A DNA stretch of 63,449 nt from an uncultured Prochlorococcus sp. (GTDB lineage Bacteria; Cyanobacteriota; Cyanobacteriia; PCC-6307; Cyanobiaceae). How positions within the stretch are numbered: position 1 is the first letter of the stretch; each line of letters starts with the position of its first letter. Under the pieces are notes generated by a model. That model did no database searches and had not been told where the DNA came from. It worked only from the letters and a program-made list of their open reading frames with translations. Shown here piece by piece: positions 3,624 through 53,726 of this stretch. The stretch spans positions 1 through 63,449 of the forward strand of contig CACIYC010000006.1 of NCBI GenBank assembly GCA_902590775.1, written 5' to 3'. Position numbers and translations under genes: made by a program.

Positions 3624-4418
3624 TTACAGATAATCAACTAATTCTGAAGAACTATGAAAAACATAATTACTTTTTTTTACTGCTGGACGGGAAATCAACC
3701 ATAAATCGAGTCCTTGTTGTTGAGTAATTCTTTGCCAAGTGTCTTGCGTGGGTCCTCCAGATTCTCTTGCAACAACTCCCGTAATCCCCCATTTTCGGCA
3801 CAGAGCTTCTTCAATCCCTCCTACCTCGCTTTTTATAGGCTTCAATACTGCCAAATGATCTGGAGGCAAGTCAGCAGACAAACCTTGCACAAGGCCATCT
3901 ACAGTTGGCATAACTCTTGCGAAAGCAATTGCACCTGATAAACGTGCAATCTTTAAGGCTTTAGGCAGCGCCCTTGATCCAATAGCAAATAATATTCGTT
4001 GTCCAGTTAATTTGAAATTAATAAGATCTTCAAATTTTTTTATTAACGATGCTTCTGGAATTGTTTCGCAATGGCGCTCAAAACGGAGTAAAGGCTGATC
4101 TTCGTCTACACATACTGACTGAAGATTAGAACTGATAATTTGTGCAAATGGATGGGTAGCATCAACAACCCAATCAAATCCATCATGAATTTCTTGAGCA
4201 TTCTCTAAGACTCTACGAATATCATTAGCACCTTCCAAAGCACCTATCCATAAAGAGTTTAAAGGCATTTGTGAATACGCCAATGAAGCTTGCTCAGAAA
4301 CAACACTTACACTAATCTTCCAACCTTTTGTAAGCAAAGCCTTTACAAGTGGGGGGCCATCTCCAGTTCCAGATAGAATCCATAAATGACCATGGCAATT
4401 TCGTCTATTGTCCATCAA
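3624..4418 (-). CDS. cobK: precorrin-6A reductase
   Basis: CobK/CbiJ reduces the precorrin-6A macrocycle with NADPH during cobalamin (here pseudocobalamin) synthesis. The 264-residue protein opens with LWILSGTGDGPPLVKALLTKGW, the dinucleotide-binding start of this family, and carries the conserved VVDATHPFAQIISSN and LLRFERH blocks. The start MMDN at 4418 lies 25 bp from the divergent ssb start at 4444, so both promoters must sit inside or very near the genes. The other pathway gene here, cobM, lies 38 kb away, as is usual for the scattered cobalamin genes of picocyanobacteria. Confidence 0.88.
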   Translation of the reverse strand: MMDNRRNCHGHLWILSGTGDGPPLVKALLTKGWKISVSVVSEQASLAYSQMPLNSLWIGALEGANDIRRVLENAQEIHDGFDWVVDATHPFAQIISSNLQSVCVDEDQPLLRFERHCETIPEASLIKKFEDLINFKLTGQRILFAIGSRALPKALKIARLSGAIAFARVMPTVDGLVQGLSADLPPDHLAVLKPIKSEVGGIEEALCRKWGITGVVARESGGPTQDTWQRITQQQGLDLWLISRPAVKKSNYVFHSSSELVDYL

Positions 4419-4443
4419 GATACCTTTTACTGCTTGCTAGAAA

Positions 4444-4914
4444 ATGAACCACTGCTTGCTTGAAGTCACAGTAAAAGTAGCACCCACAATCCGTTATACC
4501 CAAGACAACCAAACTGCAATAGCAGAAATGGAAGTAGCTTTTGAGGGGCTTCGTGCAGATGACCCAACAGGAACAATCAAAGCCATTGGATGGGGCAACA
4601 TGGCTCAAGACCTTCAAAGTAATGCCCAAGTTGGGCAAAAACTTATTCTTGAAGGCCGGTTGAGAATGAATACAGTTCCAAGACAGGATGGGAGCAAAGA
4701 AAAGAAAGCTGAGTTCACAATATCTAAGTTGCACTCCTCTACTAAAAATCCAGGCTCATCAAACACATCTACTGAAAATTTCCAATCTAAAAATTCTTCA
4801 ACCTCTAATCTTTCAGAAACACCCTTAAAACAAACAAACAATTCATCAGAAGAAGATCCTGTTACTTGGAATAGCGCTCCTCTAATACCAGATACTGATG
4901 AAATACCTTTTTAA
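4444..4914 (+). CDS. ssb: single-stranded DNA-binding protein
   Basis: SSB coats single-stranded DNA in replication, repair and recombination and recruits partners through its acidic tip. The 156-residue product has an OB-fold over about residues 1-105 (VTVKVAPTIRYTQ, TIKAIGWGNMAQDLQ, VGQKLILEGRLRMNT) and a low-complexity Ser/Asn/Thr/Glu linker. It ends DTDEIPF, a good match to the conserved acidic tip. Divergent from cobK with only 25 bp between starts. Confidence 0.9.
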   Translation: MNHCLLEVTVKVAPTIRYTQDNQTAIAEMEVAFEGLRADDPTGTIKAIGWGNMAQDLQSNAQVGQKLILEGRLRMNTVPRQDGSKEKKAEFTISKLHSSTKNPGSSNTSTENFQSKNSSTSNLSETPLKQTNNSSEEDPVTWNSAPLIPDTDEIPF

Positions 4915-4931
4915 TTAAAATTACTGATTGA

Positions 4932-5117
4932 TTAATCCTCAAGCTTTTCAGATGCCAATGCAAGAAATTGATCAAGCTCTCTTTCCAAAGCCGCCAAATC
5001 ATGCCTCAATTCTGGCCAACAACCTTTGTCAATCTTCTCTAAGATCAAAGCTCTATCTTCATGCAATAGAGCTATTAACTTTTGAAGATCAATCGGTTGT
5101 TTGTCTAATGAAGCCAT
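4932..5117 (-). CDS. conserved small helical protein of unknown function
   Basis: I do not recognise a named family. The 61-residue product starting MASLDKQPIDLQKLI is almost all predicted helix, with heptad-like leucines (LQKLIALL, LRHDLAALERELDQFLALA) that suggest a short coiled coil or helical hairpin, and one WPEL loop. I chose the inner ATG at 5117 over the one at 5135 because the outer residues (MYVGNF) look unconstrained and the inner start matches the style of picocyanobacterial small proteins. Convergent with ssb, 17 bp apart. It has no signal peptide or membrane segment, so it is probably cytoplasmic. Confidence 0.55.
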   Translation of the reverse strand: MASLDKQPIDLQKLIALLHEDRALILEKIDKGCWPELRHDLAALERELDQFLALASEKLED

Positions 5118-5168
5118 GAAATTTCCTACATACAAAAAACTTAAGGCCTAAAAAACCAAATTTTAAAA

Positions 5169-5741
5169 ATGAAAAAACAATTGTCACCGGCAAGTTTAGT
5201 TTCAATAACAGGAAGCATTCTTGCAGTAACAGGTCTTATTTCATACTTCAAAGACGCGACGAACCTAAGTGTACCAACCTTTTTCTATGGAGTTCCTATT
5301 CTTTTAATAGGTTTAGCAATGAAAAACTCTGAGATTCAGCCAGTTAAAAGTTTGATTTCCTCATCTCAATTAATGAAATTGAAAGATCAAGGACCAAAAG
5401 AATTATCAGATCTTATTGGAGATGTAACGCGATTTAGATATGGGCAAAGAGCTCATCTTGAAACATCGCTGCAAGCTTTAAAACTTTGGGATGATAACAA
5501 GCCTCCCCAGTTACGTGAAATTGAATTGATAGAAATTGAACATCAATTTGGTGTTCGCATGAAATTTGAATTTCTTGGAGTCCCAATTGAAAAATGGCAA
5601 GATAAAAAAGACCGTCTTGGAAGATTCTTTGCAAAAGATTTAATAGCTGACATTGCCTGTAGCTCTCCTGGAGAACTTAGTCTCCAACTTCTTCCAAAAT
5701 CACAAACACTAGAAAAAACAAACATCGATGGGACCGAATAA
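5169..5741 (+). CDS. DUF2854 membrane protein
   Basis: A 190-residue protein of the DUF2854 family, shared by cyanobacteria and chloroplasts and of unknown function. Two hydrophobic segments at about residues 8-26 and 37-52 form a membrane hairpin with a short loop ([10 protein letters not shown]). They are followed by a charged soluble domain with [19 protein letters not shown] and [13 protein letters not shown]. Gene order continues directly into argB on the same strand (stop to next ATG 13 bp), so the two are probably co-transcribed. Membrane location is inferred from hydrophobicity only. Confidence 0.7.
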
Positions 5742-5754
5742 TTTTCATTCAAGC

Positions 5755-6642
5755 ATGCCTAACAACTCTTCAAATAAATACGAAAATAATGACTCAATAA
5801 GGGTTTCGGTCCTTAGCGAAGCTCTCCCGTATATTCAAAAATTTGCTGGTCGTCGAATAGTAATTAAATATGGTGGTTCAGCAATGTCCAACAAAAATCT
5901 AAAGGAAGCTGTTTTTCGAGACATAGCATTACTTTCAAGTGTAGGCGCTCATCCAGTAGTCGTTCACGGAGGCGGTCCAGAAATCAACCAATGGTTGAAG
6001 AAACTTGAGATTGACAGTGAATTTCGTGACGGATTAAGAGTAACAAACTCTGAAACCATGGATGTAGTTGCGATGGTTCTTACAGGGAGAGTGAATAAGC
6101 AAATTGTCAATGGAATAAATAATGTTGGAGCTTCTTCAGTAGGCATATGTGGAATTGATGGAAGGCTGCTAGAAGCACGTCCTTGGGGAAATGGAAGCCA
6201 TGGCCTTGTAGGAGAAGTAGCTAAGGTTAATTCAGAAGTAATTGAGCCACTTATTGCCAAAGGTTATATACCTGTCATCTCTAGTGTTGCATCTTCAGAT
6301 AAAGGGGTCACTTACAACATCAATGCAGATACTGCGGCAGGGGAAATCGCTGCTGCCATTGGGGCAGAGAAGCTGATTTTATTAACAGATACTCTGGGGA
6401 TACTAAGAGATCAGAATGACCCCTTAACACTTCTTCAACATGTAAGGCTGCCAGAAGTTCGTGAGCTTATTGATCAAGGTGTAGTCAATGGTGGAATGAC
6501 ACCTAAAACAGAGTGCTGTATAAGAGCATTAGCTCAAGGAGTAACAGCAGCACATATTATCGATGGACGCATCCCGCATGCTCTTCTTTTAGAAGTGTTT
6601 ACAGATAAGGGGATAGGAACAATGATTACTGGTCGAGGATAA
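5755..6642 (+). CDS. argB: acetylglutamate kinase
   Basis: ArgB phosphorylates N-acetylglutamate in arginine synthesis; in cyanobacteria it is the arginine-inhibited enzyme relieved by PII. The 295-residue product has [10 protein letters not shown] (phosphate-binding Lys and Gly pair), HGGGPEIN, the [26 protein letters not shown] kinase core and the NGGMTPK loop near the end. An ATG at 5728 would overlap the upstream gene; the ATG at 5755 gives [13 protein letters not shown] and fits better. The N-terminal helix containing [12 protein letters not shown] is the element that in arginine-sensitive enzymes builds the hexamer. Three bases separate its stop from the next gene. Confidence 0.93.
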
Positions 6643-31371: not shown

Positions 31372-31379
31372 TACCTAAA

Positions 31380-48369: not shown

Positions 48370-48485
48370 AACTTTCTCCTTTTAAGAAAGACCTTAAAAT
48401 CTTTCAACTTAAACAATACTGATCTAATTTAAAAGGCTAAGTTCCAACTACTTTGATCTAATTGATCAAAGCAACAAAACATCGC

Positions 48486-49238
48486 ATGAATTCTTCATTT
48501 TCTCTACAAGGGCAAACTGCCATTATCACAGGCGCTAGCAGAGGCATTGGGAAAGCCATTGCTATAGCACTTGCAAAAATAGGAGCAGAGGTTGTTGTGA
48601 ACTATTCCAGCTCTCCACACAATGCTAGAGAGGTTGTTTCATTAATAGAAAAGGAAGGCGGGAAAGCCTATGCTGTTCAAGCGAATGTAGCTGATGAAAA
48701 CTCAGTAAACGAATTAATAAAAACTGTTTTAGCAAAAAGTGGTCAAATAGATATTTTGGTTAACAATGCTGGGATCACAAAAGATAGCCTTTTGATGAGA
48801 ATGAAAACAGAAGATTGGCAATCAGTAATAGATCTAAATTTAACGGGTGTTTTTCTCTGTACTAAAGCAGTCTCAAGAGCAATGATCAAAAGGAAAAAAG
48901 GCAGAATTATAAATATCACTTCTGTTGTGGGAATCATGGGTAATGCAGGACAATCAAATTATGCTTCAGCGAAAGCAGGAGTCATTGGACTAACAAAAAG
49001 CACTGCAAAAGAATTTGCAAGTAGAGGAATCACAGTTAATGCTGTAGCTCCAGGTTTTATCCAAACAGATATGACTAAAGATTTAAATGCAGATCAAATC
49101 CTTTCCTTAATTCCATTAGGATATTTCGGTGATCCAGAGCATATTGCAGGTACAGTATGTTTTCTTGCCTCTCATATGGCTTCCTCCTACATCACAGGAC
49201 AAGTCATAAATGTTGATGGTGGAATGGTGATGAGCTAA
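48486..49238 (+). CDS. fabG: 3-oxoacyl-ACP reductase
   Basis: Reduces 3-oxoacyl-ACP with NADPH in fatty-acid elongation. From MNSSFSLQGQTAIITGAS (ATG at 48486) it is 250 residues; a further upstream start at 48462 adds MIKATKHR and is less typical. It has TGASRGIGKAIA, the NNAG motif (LVNNAGITKD), the catalytic set Ser (NITSVVGIMGN), Tyr-x3-Lys (NYASAKAG), and the C-terminal SSYITGQVINVDGGMVM that closes the cofactor pocket. A 232-bp spacer follows with no gene seen. Confidence 0.94.
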   Translation: MNSSFSLQGQTAIITGASRGIGKAIAIALAKIGAEVVVNYSSSPHNAREVVSLIEKEGGKAYAVQANVADENSVNELIKTVLAKSGQIDILVNNAGITKDSLLMRMKTEDWQSVIDLNLTGVFLCTKAVSRAMIKRKKGRIINITSVVGIMGNAGQSNYASAKAGVIGLTKSTAKEFASRGITVNAVAPGFIQTDMTKDLNADQILSLIPLGYFGDPEHIAGTVCFLASHMASSYITGQVINVDGGMVMS

Positions 49239-49470
49239 TACACACTAGCTAACTTTTAAAAAACCATTTATAAGAGTAGGAGTCAGCGAAAAATTACCCT
49301 AAATTGCCAGTTTTTCCTAAAACAGAATTTATACCAAGGTATGAGGTCAGCTACTTAAGGGTTTCGACTGCCAAGAAGACACAAGAATCTAAAACTGGAA
49401 TCAAACGACAAAAGCAAGCTTGGGATAATTGACTAGCAGCTCACCCTAAGTACAAACCAAAGATTTTCAT

Positions 49471-51159
49471 TTGAAACGCTTACTACTTGCACCGCTTCTA
49501 TTAGGTTTAATTCCTTCAGTTAATGCCTTTCGTTGGAGTAGTGATTTTGTCGTTAAAACTGATCTGGGGGAGAAATCCGAGCTGCCTTCCGGTGAAGCCG
49601 TTAATGTCGACTTCATGGAGTTACCTGCGAGTCGGCCTCCAGCGAATGCTGTAAACATTTCAATCCCCCTTGAACAAGCTTTTCAGTTTGCGGGGGACAA
49701 AGCCGCCTGGATGGAGCCTCCAACTTGGCGCAATCGCATCTTGCGGTTTTCCTTTGAGGAAATTGATATGCCAGATGCAGGCGAACACATGGGTTTGTAC
49801 GGTATAGGGGCTTACGATCGACTCAACCCTTGGCTGTACGGCGGTATCACTCTTTACGGTGCCGCGAGCGGACACCGTGGCGGTTTTTTTACTGGTGGCT
49901 ATACCTTGGGCGTGGAACGTCAGTTAACCGATAACTGGTTTCTCGATGCCGGAGGCTATGTGGGTGCCGGGGGCGGCGGTGCCGCGGCGCAAGGAGGAGG
50001 GTTAATGATCCGCCCACATGTCGGTCTCAAGCACGACTTTAGCTGGGGCGCACTGGGCCTGAATTATACCTACGTAGACTTCCCCAACGGAGATATTTCC
50101 AGCGATGCAATCGCGCTTTCAGTGGATATTCCCTTCAGTTCACTGACACTCAATTGGGAAGATGATGGGCTGACTGCGGCCGATTACTTCGGAGCCGACT
50201 GGAGCAATGTGAGCCGCCACCGATCGCACCTAGCCGCCCGCGTTCGCACCTATTCTCCCGCCAGCTGGAGCAAAACCACCTCCGGTGGGTCGATTGATGA
50301 TTCATTGGGGCTGATCGGCGTAGAGTACTCTTACTTTCTTGATGACAACTGGTTTGCCACCTTTGAAACTGCCGGTGCCGTATCAGGTGGCGTAGGCGGG
50401 TACGCCGAACTTTTAGCCGGGTTAGGCTATCGCCTTCCCCTAACCAAAGACGATCGTCTAGCCCTACTCCCCGCCTTAACCATCGGCGGCGCCGGTGGCG
50501 GGGAGGTCGAAACCGGCGGAGGATTTGTTGCCCGAGCAAATCTAGGATTGGAATACCGACTTTCTCCTCATCTCAGCCTAATTATGGACGGCGGCTATCT
50601 CACCGCCCCAGATGGCAATTTTGATACCCCATATGTCGGCTTCAATTTGGCATACGTAATGGAAACCTTTGCTCAGGATCAAAAAGGAGCCCCCTTAACG
50701 GAAACAGACCTTATACAAACTACAAAATGGCGCTTTCGCCCGGCGCACCAATGGTATTTTGATGCGCAACGTAAGGGAGGCTCTTCACGCGATATGCAAC
50801 TTATGGGAGGTAAAATCGACTGGATGGGAGGAGATTCTTGGTACCTTACAGGACAAGGATTAAGCGCGTATGCAGGAGGAGCCGGTGGCTATTCAGAGGG
50901 ACATTGGGGGGCAGGCGTTTTTGGCCCGAGCTGGAAGAACTGGCAACTCTATGGCGAAATGCTCATAGGTGCCGGAGGGGGAGGAGGCGTTGATAGTGGT
51001 AGCGCCTTATTGTTCAAACCGAGTGTCGGGTTAGAGTGCAATCTAAATAAGGACTTCAGCCTTCAAACTGGCATAGGAAAAGTGATTTCTAAGAATGGGA
51101 ATCTTGATGCCAATATCTTGGACGCTAGTCTGGTTTGGCGCTTTGGGGCCCCAAAATAA
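49471..51159 (+). CDS. chimeric, high-GC, glycine-rich secreted beta-barrel-like protein (probable foreign insert in a native gene)
   Basis: A 562-residue protein with no named family known to me. Residues 1-20 (MKRLLLAPLLLGLIPSVNAF) are a signal peptide of the native style, and 22-35 (WSSDFVVKTDLGEK) match a native small secreted protein. After about residue 40 the DNA turns GC-rich (about 60% in a 60-bp sample at 49981-50040, against AT-rich neighbours). Three divergent units, at about 86-222, 245-397 and 417-559, each have an Arg-rich strand, an MGLIG-like strand, a W-containing strand, GG-rich turns (GAGGGG), an HVGL/NLGL/SVGL strand, a G-N-x-D turn and a final aromatic strand (SVDIPF, NLAYV, LVWRF). 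This fits outer-membrane beta strands. The start is TTG at 49471. GC falls again in the last third. It is followed by an in-frame remnant. Confidence 0.7.
   Translation: MKRLLLAPLLLGLIPSVNAFRWSSDFVVKTDLGEKSELPSGEAVNVDFMELPASRPPANAVNISIPLEQAFQFAGDKAAWMEPPTWRNRILRFSFEEIDMPDAGEHMGLYGIGAYDRLNPWLYGGITLYGAASGHRGGFFTGGYTLGVERQLTDNWFLDAGGYVGAGGGGAAAQGGGLMIRPHVGLKHDFSWGALGLNYTYVDFPNGDISSDAIALSVDIPFSSLTLNWEDDGLTAADYFGADWSNVSRHRSHLAARVRTYSPASWSKTTSGGSIDDSLGLIGVEYSYFLDDNWFATFETAGAVSGGVGGYAELLAGLGYRLPLTKDDRLALLPALTIGGAGGGEVETGGGFVARANLGLEYRLSPHLSLIMDGGYLTAPDGNFDTPYVGFNLAYVMETFAQDQKGAPLTETDLIQTTKWRFRPAHQWYFDAQRKGGSSRDMQLMGGKIDWMGGDSWYLTGQGLSAYAGGAGGYSEGHWGAGVFGPSWKNWQLYGEMLIGAGGGGGVDSGSALLFKPSVGLECNLNKDFSLQTGIGKVISKNGNLDANILDASLVWRFGAPK
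49533..49576 (+). repeat. 44-bp direct repeat, left copy
   Basis: This segment matches 51171-51214 with 2 mismatches in 44 bp. It encodes WSSDFVVKTDLGEK near the start of the barrel gene. Separation of the copies is 1638 bp, a multiple of three, so both are in the same frame. Confidence 0.95.
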
Positions 51160-51170
51160 AGCTCCCAACC

Positions 51171-51214
51171 TTGGAGTAGTGATATTGTCGTTAAAACTGA
51201 TCTGGGAGAGAAAT
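51171..51214 (+). repeat. 44-bp direct repeat, right copy
   Basis: Matches the left copy with 2 mismatches. It lies 12 bp after the TAA stop of the barrel gene and begins the native remnant WSSDIVVKTDLGEKFIVK. Confidence 0.95.
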
Positions 51215-51417
51215 TTATCGTTAAAGAATCAGCAGTCAATGTGATTCCTATGGGAGTAAATGATTTAATAAAAATAATTAATGAAGACGGAGTAAAGACA
51301 AAAGAAAAATTTTATAAATGCAATTCAAGATACGGAAAAGGCTACCAGCTACAAGAAGAGGGATATAGCTATTGCGAAATTAAATATGCAATGTATTTTG
51401 GGAAACTTCATAAATAA
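51172..51417 (+). pseudogene. C-terminal remnant of a native small secreted protein
   Basis: 81 codons open in the frame of the barrel gene, past its TAA (51157-51159), encoding WSSDIVVKTDLGEKFIVKE, then VNVIPMGVNDLI, FYKCNSRYGKGYQL and GYSYCEIKYAMYFG, ending at TAA 51415-51417. It is AT-rich with native codon use and has two Cys, as in small exported proteins of picocyanobacteria. It lacks a start and signal peptide of its own. With residues 1-21 of the barrel gene it would form one complete small exported protein of about 100 residues, so the native gene looks split by the insert. Readthrough of the stop is possible but undemonstrated. Confidence 0.7.
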
Positions 51418-51654
51418 CCTTCCGATATTGCTAAAAATTCGGAAACAGATGGTATCTACAAAAGGCACATCAAAATATTCATTCTTATAGAAATCAGTCT
51501 TAGCTTCTTCAATCACCAGATGTTAGACAGTATTTATACAAATACTAAAAATCGCTCAAACACATTGCAAGACAATTTATCTCGGGAGTTAGTCAGTATG
51601 TGTACTAACTTATGCACTGAGAAAGAATGATCAACTACACTAATTTCCCTTTAT

Positions 51655-51828
51655 TCACTCAATTGGCTGACCAAGTTCATCACGCAGCCTTCGAATACGC
51701 TGTAACAACTTTAACCTTCTGCTTCTAGCAGTTGCAGTTAAAAAAAGTCTTAAAGGGAAATAGATCAAAGTCATTGTGCCAGCTAGACCGGCCATTAAGA
51801 TAAAAAATAGTGATCCTGAATCATTCAT
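51655..51828 (-). CDS. small conserved membrane protein of unknown function
   Basis: A 57-residue frame starting MNDSGSLFFILMAGLAGTM. One hydrophobic helix (about 7-28, LFFILMAGLAGTMTLIYFPLRL) is followed by a basic, arginine-rich tail (ARSRRLKLLQRIRRLRDELGQ), suggesting a membrane protein with its tail in the cytoplasm. Codon use is native. It is divergent from the groEL paralog. I do not know a family name, and small genes of this type carry risk of over-calling. Confidence 0.55.
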   Translation of the reverse strand: MNDSGSLFFILMAGLAGTMTLIYFPLRLFLTATARSRRLKLLQRIRRLRDELGQPIE

Positions 51829-51909
51829 ATTGAAACCATAAGTGGCAAAGCAGCAATAAGCACTATTTTTTGAATCAAATTTTCAAAGGATTCGGCTTTC
51901 CCCACTTAT

Positions 51910-53667
<1,758 letters not shown>

Positions 53668-53726
53668 TCAAAAAAAATTCTTCAACCTAAAACATTTATC
53701 TCCTTCATAACAATTACCAAAAACAA

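Follow-up and report, generated by a model that had tools for sequence, protein, structure and literature searches.

Probable lateral movement of a putative outer-membrane beta-barrel behind resident export leaders in Prochlorococcus

Genomic islands of Prochlorococcus are places where surface genes undergo allelic exchange. Integron cassettes are small genes strung together in arrays through a short conserved sequence, and are recognised by their attC sites and integron integrase. According to the available parts of two reports, tycheposons are tRNA-associated integrative elements first described in Prochlorococcus (PMC10872708, PMC11389934), and a size of 4–200 kbp is given for them (PMC10872708). 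The gene described here concerns a narrower problem, namely that a surface protein acquired laterally depends on an export signal usable by its new host.

The window, that is, the whole 63,449-nucleotide stretch of DNA analysed, belongs to an assembly of 1.24 Mb in 48 contigs that is 67% complete (G000; G-numbers label genomes and L-numbers loci) and contains one barrel copy, the gene at 49471–51159, called the window copy below. According to the ORF list, this gene starts with TTG and encodes 562 aa on the forward strand, on which all of the parts given here lie. It opens with an export leader, MKRLLLAPLLLGLIPSVNA-F (49471–49532), which by inspection is a Sec-type signal peptide, and the 562-aa protein would be exported by the Sec route; the first stretch of this leader (49471–49487) is a copy of a repeat core, ATGAAACGCTTACTACT, with one mismatch (TTG), and is a member of a dispersed repeat family. 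A direct-repeat search found 44 bp repeated with two mismatches (BLAST E 3e-15) at 49533–49576 (copy 1, WSSDFVVKTDLGEK) and 51171–51214 (copy 2, WSSDIVVKTDLGEK). Between the copies lie a GC-rich linker (SELPSGEA...EQA; 49577–49680), recognised by composition and without a homologue among the loci compared; a second linker, FQFAGDKAAWMEPP (49681–49722), which is similar in some copies with leader A (L005, L006, L009, and L045); the foreign triple-repeat beta-barrel body, from TWRNR to the stop (49723–51159), delimited by identity, tree, model and profile repeats; and the head of the barrel 3' untranslated region (51160–51170), common to other copies. The 5' edge of the shared body is CCAACTTGG (49720–49728) and the 3' edge is CCAACCTTGG (51165–51174), which overlaps copy 2, both motifs having been noticed post hoc. 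After copy 2, the 3' remainder of a small secreted-protein (WSSD) gene, without its signal peptide, occupies 51215–51417, as judged by frame and composition.

The GC content is 0.387 in the leader, 0.386 in copy 1, 0.542 in the linker, 0.535 in the body, 0.291 in the native tail and 0.370 in the whole window; GC3 is 0.257 in the leader and 0.517 in the body, compared with 0.256 in fabG and 0.222 in groEL. GC and codon use are not uniform across the gene, and both GC and GC3 step at 49577, directly after the end of copy 1. The AT-rich tail is in the same frame as copy 2, and no signal-peptide DNA was found upstream of that copy; taken with the step at the end of copy 1, this indicates that the insert is 49577–51170, with one repeat copy on each side. 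The preliminary description of this DNA had claimed a native-like, AT-rich leader, a foreign GC-rich barrel body behind that export signal within a split small secreted-protein gene, direct repeats as its bounds, and a native segment that recurs after the stop and runs on AT-rich; these features are confirmed by the measurements above, and the leader–body fusion keeps the reading frame.

A 57-aa ORF stands beside groEL in 13 of 14 genomes of the genus, G000 included, and the gap between fabG and this ORF is ~10–21 bp in L061, L066, L067, L068, and L071 among 12 congener loci. The interval from fabG to groEL is variable; other inserts, of ~250–1370 bp, occur in L063, L064, L065, L069, L070, and L072. 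The flank of L062 (~1.5 kb) ends short of fabG, so both sides were seen in 11 of the 12 loci, and in none of these 11 does the fabG–groEL interval hold a counterpart of 49240–51658; the congeners seen lack the 562-aa form at this locus. This gap comparison identifies the 2.4-kb segment between fabG and the 57-aa ORF as an accessory insertion at a variable spot. Inspection revealed no transposase-like ORF in it, the edges of the insert carry no inverted repeats of at least 20 nt, and no RNA element was matched by Rfam in 48400–53700. The small secreted-protein gene, which had been taken to be resident, is itself accessory in the genus: its protein occurs in one of 14 genomes (G000 only; several of the 14 are incomplete), and the gene has matches in 11 of 400 family genomes (G000 is among them), some of which cover its N-terminal part only. 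That N-terminus stands on different bodies, for example on frames of ~580 aa in L041 and L042, which look like a trypsin-type protease with repeats.

The earlier statement that no recognisable mobile element is present proved too strong. Positions 49340–49471 of the forward strand encode what looks like the N-terminal ~44 residues of a serine recombinase, interrupted by one TGA, and this remnant stops where the leader begins. Its match to Pfam Resolvase has an E value of 0.043, below the cut-off, and a match was found in one of 138 other genomes searched (L219, 42% over 36 aa); none of 2000 shuffles reached the score of the remnant–L219 alignment, and the L219 fragment is a Resolvase with an E value of 1.7e-9. 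No intact serine recombinase was found at the locus, only the interrupted N-terminal remnant.

The barrel body was followed through other genomes by a contig scan with six peptide patterns, a design by which distant relatives may be missed. The scan matched 29 loci, of which 26 are titled Prochlorococcus, L027 is a gammaproteobacterial MAG, L033 is a Verrucomicrobiota MAG, and L032 is a MAG titled Crocinitomicaceae that is probably mis-binned because its leader and flanks look like Prochlorococcus. The body is present in two of 14 genus genomes and 17 of 400 family genomes, G000 included in both, and one of the 17, G237, has a shortened barrel form. DNA identity to the window body is 82.6–94.0% in the Prochlorococcus copies of the scan, 73% in L027 and 70% in L033. 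In a tree of 37 distinct bodies out of 44 (six duplicates and one fragment were dropped), 35 bodies group in a single clade that excludes L027 and L033, with support of 100/100; the window copy, L008, and L010 are short branches near the clade base, L027 and L033 are long branches, many inner forks are open, and the window body has the highest GC within the 35-body clade. As for the source, which the preliminary description proposed to look for in proteobacteria and picocyanobacteria, the nearest relatives found are other Prochlorococcus and not proteobacteria, and direct recent transfer from proteobacteria was rejected on that ground. The ratio dN/dS is 0.14–0.34 in eight Prochlorococcus pairs (of ten pairs selected, one dropped out because the lengths were unequal, and dS is 2.8 in the pair that includes L027), and these codon comparisons demonstrate purifying selection on the body. 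A search for carriage by phages (50,697 records) or plasmids (72,556 records) gave no match to the body, and viral contigs gave no confirmed match to it.

The AlphaFold model of the window body has 24 strands and is weak (pLDDT 62, pTM 0.51). In a Foldseek search, the best 50 of 294 matches (E up to 0.001) are all outer-membrane proteins, with TM-scores under 0.25. Profile comparison recovers three internal repeats (R2–R3 97.4%, R1–R3 93.6%, and R1–R2 87.7%), the profiles being shallow and glycine-rich (Neff 1.6). The window body has no family match in Pfam, NCBIfam, or PHROGs, and no relative of solved structure was found; L033 reaches 28.3 bits against PF13505, whose cut-off is 28.7, in three stretches. 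The model and the repeats suggest that the body is probably an outer-membrane beta-barrel made of three repeats of ~8 strands. It would serve as an exchangeable surface barrel, in glycan export, in uptake, or as a change of phage receptor. In L033, the barrel at 4209–6440 has a longer N-terminus and an LptC/LptA-like stretch (E 0.0038 and 0.048, both under the cut-off), and the ORFs neighbouring this barrel look like polysaccharide-export and glycosyl-transfer genes.

Leaders were compared in the 43 rows in which the gene start could be read, a set that counts six duplicates and the two outgroups: leader A is present in 37 rows, and other leaders are found in the window copy, L008, L030, L057, L027, and L033. 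The leader of L030 is common to L057 and may be distantly akin to A. L008 comes from the same genus (G011) and lies at a site that differs from that of the window copy; a 59-aa piece downstream of it has only a weak PHROG match, to which PHROG assigns no function. At least three unrelated leaders stand in front of the body, and flank comparison gives at least seven site groups, some of them judged from short contig ends. Thus, the claim that a barrel was gained behind an export signal stands as regards the fusion and falls as regards a single event, since the same body occurs elsewhere in Prochlorococcus at other sites and behind other leaders. The observation is real and is part of a wider pattern, in which a body roams behind resident leaders, and is not a case of one captured gene. 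Direct repeats surround the barrel gene in five copies (L012, L015, L017, L021, and L022), of which L021 belongs to the cultured strain MIT 9302. In L012, L015, L017, and L022, the 5' half of tRNA-Pro together with its upstream region is repeated around a single barrel gene. Among the eight tRNA-Pro copies compared (L046, L047, L050, and L053 were left out, L047 and L053 being duplicates), L007 has a repeat of only 29 nt, inside the tRNA, and L009, L028, and L029 have no repeat.

A native AT-rich protein of ~607 aa likewise begins with leader A. The 30 leader-A loci comprise 19 barrels, two barrels with an internal deletion, and nine native genes; in the 19 barrels the GC content is 0.20–0.27 in the leader and 0.46–0.51 in the body, and in the nine native genes it is 0.30–0.31 in the body. 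In L170 and L183, an in-frame internal deletion fuses leader A to the third repeat alone. A leader-A query against 200 genomes of the high-light genus, many of them incomplete, matched 127, 72 of them strongly (E under 1e-8), and is blind to barrels with other leaders; by frame length, the 72 are 29 barrels, two deleted barrels, 32 native genes, eight of ~320 aa and one unclear (538 aa), and none of the 72 genomes has two leader-A genes. L205, L206, and L207 carry a third leader-A protein, of ~320 aa, at the locus of the native and barrel forms. The downstream neighbour c0 is common to all 12 of the other leader-A genes (nine native and three of ~320 aa), most with c1–c5 as well, but it follows only five of 20 barrels (L025 counted as a barrel), so that replacement at this locus covers only those five of the barrel loci compared. 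In these five barrel alleles (L210, L211, L214, L018, and L013), leader A is kept, and after the stop and untranslated region each has a stretch like the last ~60 nt of the native gene; this likeness was reached by 0, 0, 2, 0, and 0 of 300 shuffles, compared with 165, 68, 4, 285, 90, 25, 169, 287, and 36 of 300 in nine control barrels at other sites. Comparison of the alleles, made at the level of sequence, shows the barrel replacing a native body at a fixed locus in high-light strains, with the leader and a 3' fossil kept. The architecture of these alleles, namely resident leader, foreign body, and resident tail, is the same as that in the window. The model of the ~607-aa native protein is poor (pLDDT 39), for which reason we only infer that a barrel was exchanged for a barrel. 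The high-light 3' region was also considered as a decayed WSSD segment and rejected, as alignment by eye gave nothing clear beyond TTGGAGT.

The best explanation of these data, to which we assign a probability of about 0.78, is that a laterally moving and probably outer-membrane barrel without its own export signal was recombined in-frame behind a resident leader. The moving part of the gene seems to end short of any signal peptide, and recombination that places the body in frame behind a resident leader would turn it into a surface protein. In the window, the body would have entered a small gene of the MKRLLL-leader type, so that a signal peptide plus 44 bp of mature region is followed by the linker, the body, copy 2, and an orphan tail; the joining may have occurred by short-homology or site-specific recombination in island DNA. 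The 3' junction, where the barrel untranslated region meets the WSSD gene (TTGGAGT), is also present at two loci whose barrels carry leader A, namely L010 (89% over 168 bp) and L032 (83% over 114 bp), and the 5' junction was seen in this assembly only. Of the suggestion that the repeats are a target duplication, the part that would need a fresh duplication is not required, because the 3' junction is common to these two records; since the barrels of both have leader A, the window form need not be a new insertion and may be of old date or the product of a leader swap. Two histories would fit: the leader may have been swapped here, or the body may have inserted into a WSSD gene and leaders may have been exchanged at other sites afterwards. 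In the swap, a tentative alternative, recombination with an undamaged WSSD gene would have cost a barrel gene that already had leader A and a downstream WSSD fossil its 5' end; L010 and L032 have leader A upstream and the WSSD fossil downstream, but the linker at 49577–49680 is unmatched in the leader-A copies compared and would fit an older foreign N-terminus.

Cassette-like integration of a circular molecule, bearing the body and a single 44-bp WSSD segment, into a resident WSSD gene at that segment is unlikely, even though the insert bounds coincide with the repeat ends, L010 and L032 have the same junction, and a recombinase remnant adjoins. Such a circle would also account for the CCAAC(C)TTGG motif at the body edges, where CCAACTTGG and CCAACCTTGG are the only places within one edit of CCAACTTGG in 1780 bp of the window, and which 11 of 2000 shuffled 40-mers of body composition match; however, this motif was recognised only in hindsight, and the copies that have it with at most one edit number just 23 of 41 at the 5' edge and 8 of 41 at the 3' edge, duplicates included. 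The WSSD segment is unmatched in most barrel copies, and neither a circle nor an integrase gene was seen, nor the 5' junction in a second genome. Tandem duplication of the small gene, with later replacement of the 3' half of the first copy and the 5' half of the second, would likewise leave two WSSD segments, but just 44 bp are doubled and copy 2 has no signal-peptide DNA, so that two losses with exact edges would be needed, which makes this course improbable. An assembly or amplification chimera could be suspected from an incomplete, multi-contig assembly and a 5' junction found in one genome; it is very improbable given that the frame is intact through the leader–body fusion, that the 3' junction is found in two other records and that GC-rich bodies stand behind AT-rich leaders in dozens of genomes.

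The DNA of the leader is a dispersed repeat, a 71-base query with it matching 73 of 400 genomes; the core ATGAAACGCTTACTACT is found in 75 of 400 genomes and the reversed pattern in none of the 400. At the loci examined, 54 of 91 distinct copies of ATGAAACGCTTACTA come directly after a stop codon, compared with 37 of 482 ordinary ORF starts (Fisher p 4e-27) and 59 of 692 ATGAAA sites; the 91 copies are not a random sample, because the loci were chosen largely by leader searches, and core copies from related genomes are not independent. In 30 of the 54 stop-abutting copies, the stop closes an ORF of at least 60 aa. Fewer than 50 codons follow the core in 49 copies (33 abutting a stop) and more in 42 copies (21 abutting a stop), and in the short-frame copies identity fades after ~26 bases. 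Zero-spaced core pairs occur in L088, L090, L091, L092, and L095. Examples of core positions are 1500 and 1905 in L090, 1500 and 1950 in L091, 1212 and 1500 in L092, and 1218 and 1500 in L095. In L034–L102 and L120–L167, ATGAAACGCTTACTA(CT) heads unrelated small secreted proteins or tiny ORFs. The 17-bp core is also present in 17 viral contigs (L103–L119), mostly starting signal-peptide-like genes, including a recurring MVHKIT-type family. Among the viral copies inspected, one (L105) comes after a stop; the core copy of the window has TTG and is preceded by the recombinase remnant and not by the stop of a gene. A doubtful proposal drawn from this arrangement is that of leader-dispensing cassettes in Prochlorococcus islands: the core ATGAAACGCTTACTACT(TGCACCGCT) would be a recombination site placed immediately behind the stop of one cassette, and would at the same time supply the following cassette with its start codon and signal peptide. 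If it were true, any in-frame body landing at the core, such as the barrel, would be exported immediately. A literature search by description and not by letters, mostly without subscription papers, found nothing on the ATGAAACGCTTACTACT repeat.

The significance of the window gene lies in the fact that one foreign barrel can be traced through many genomes behind different resident leaders, with fossils marking some of the events, so that leader capture can be tested directly in an abundant phototroph of the ocean. It is a marked example of surface exchange and could change interactions with phages or nutrients. In the literature searched, again mostly without subscription papers, nothing was found on the barrel or on leader capture in Prochlorococcus. 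With LptD and the outer-membrane exporters of exopolysaccharides, the body has in common a large barrel and, in L033, an LptC/LptA-like stretch beside polysaccharide-export-like ORFs; it differs from them in its three internal repeats, and the Prochlorococcus bodies scanned have no family match. The leader repeats resemble integron cassettes in that small-gene arrays are joined at a short conserved sequence, a likeness of arrangement; they differ in that the sequence conserved here codes for the beginning of the signal peptide that follows. Some high-light barrel copies are like tycheposons in that they adjoin tRNA-Pro and the 5' half of this tRNA is directly repeated; unlike them, the window barrel has no tRNA near it, the nearest ending at 31372, so that the combination of a tRNA site with flanking repeats is not seen there, and the moving unit of about one gene is below the size range quoted above from the available text. 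As in the allelic exchange of genomic islands, surface protein genes are swapped at island loci and genes of foreign composition stand in AT-rich hosts; the difference is that here the barrel body alone is exchanged, in-frame behind different resident leaders, and 3' fossils of the host genes are left behind.
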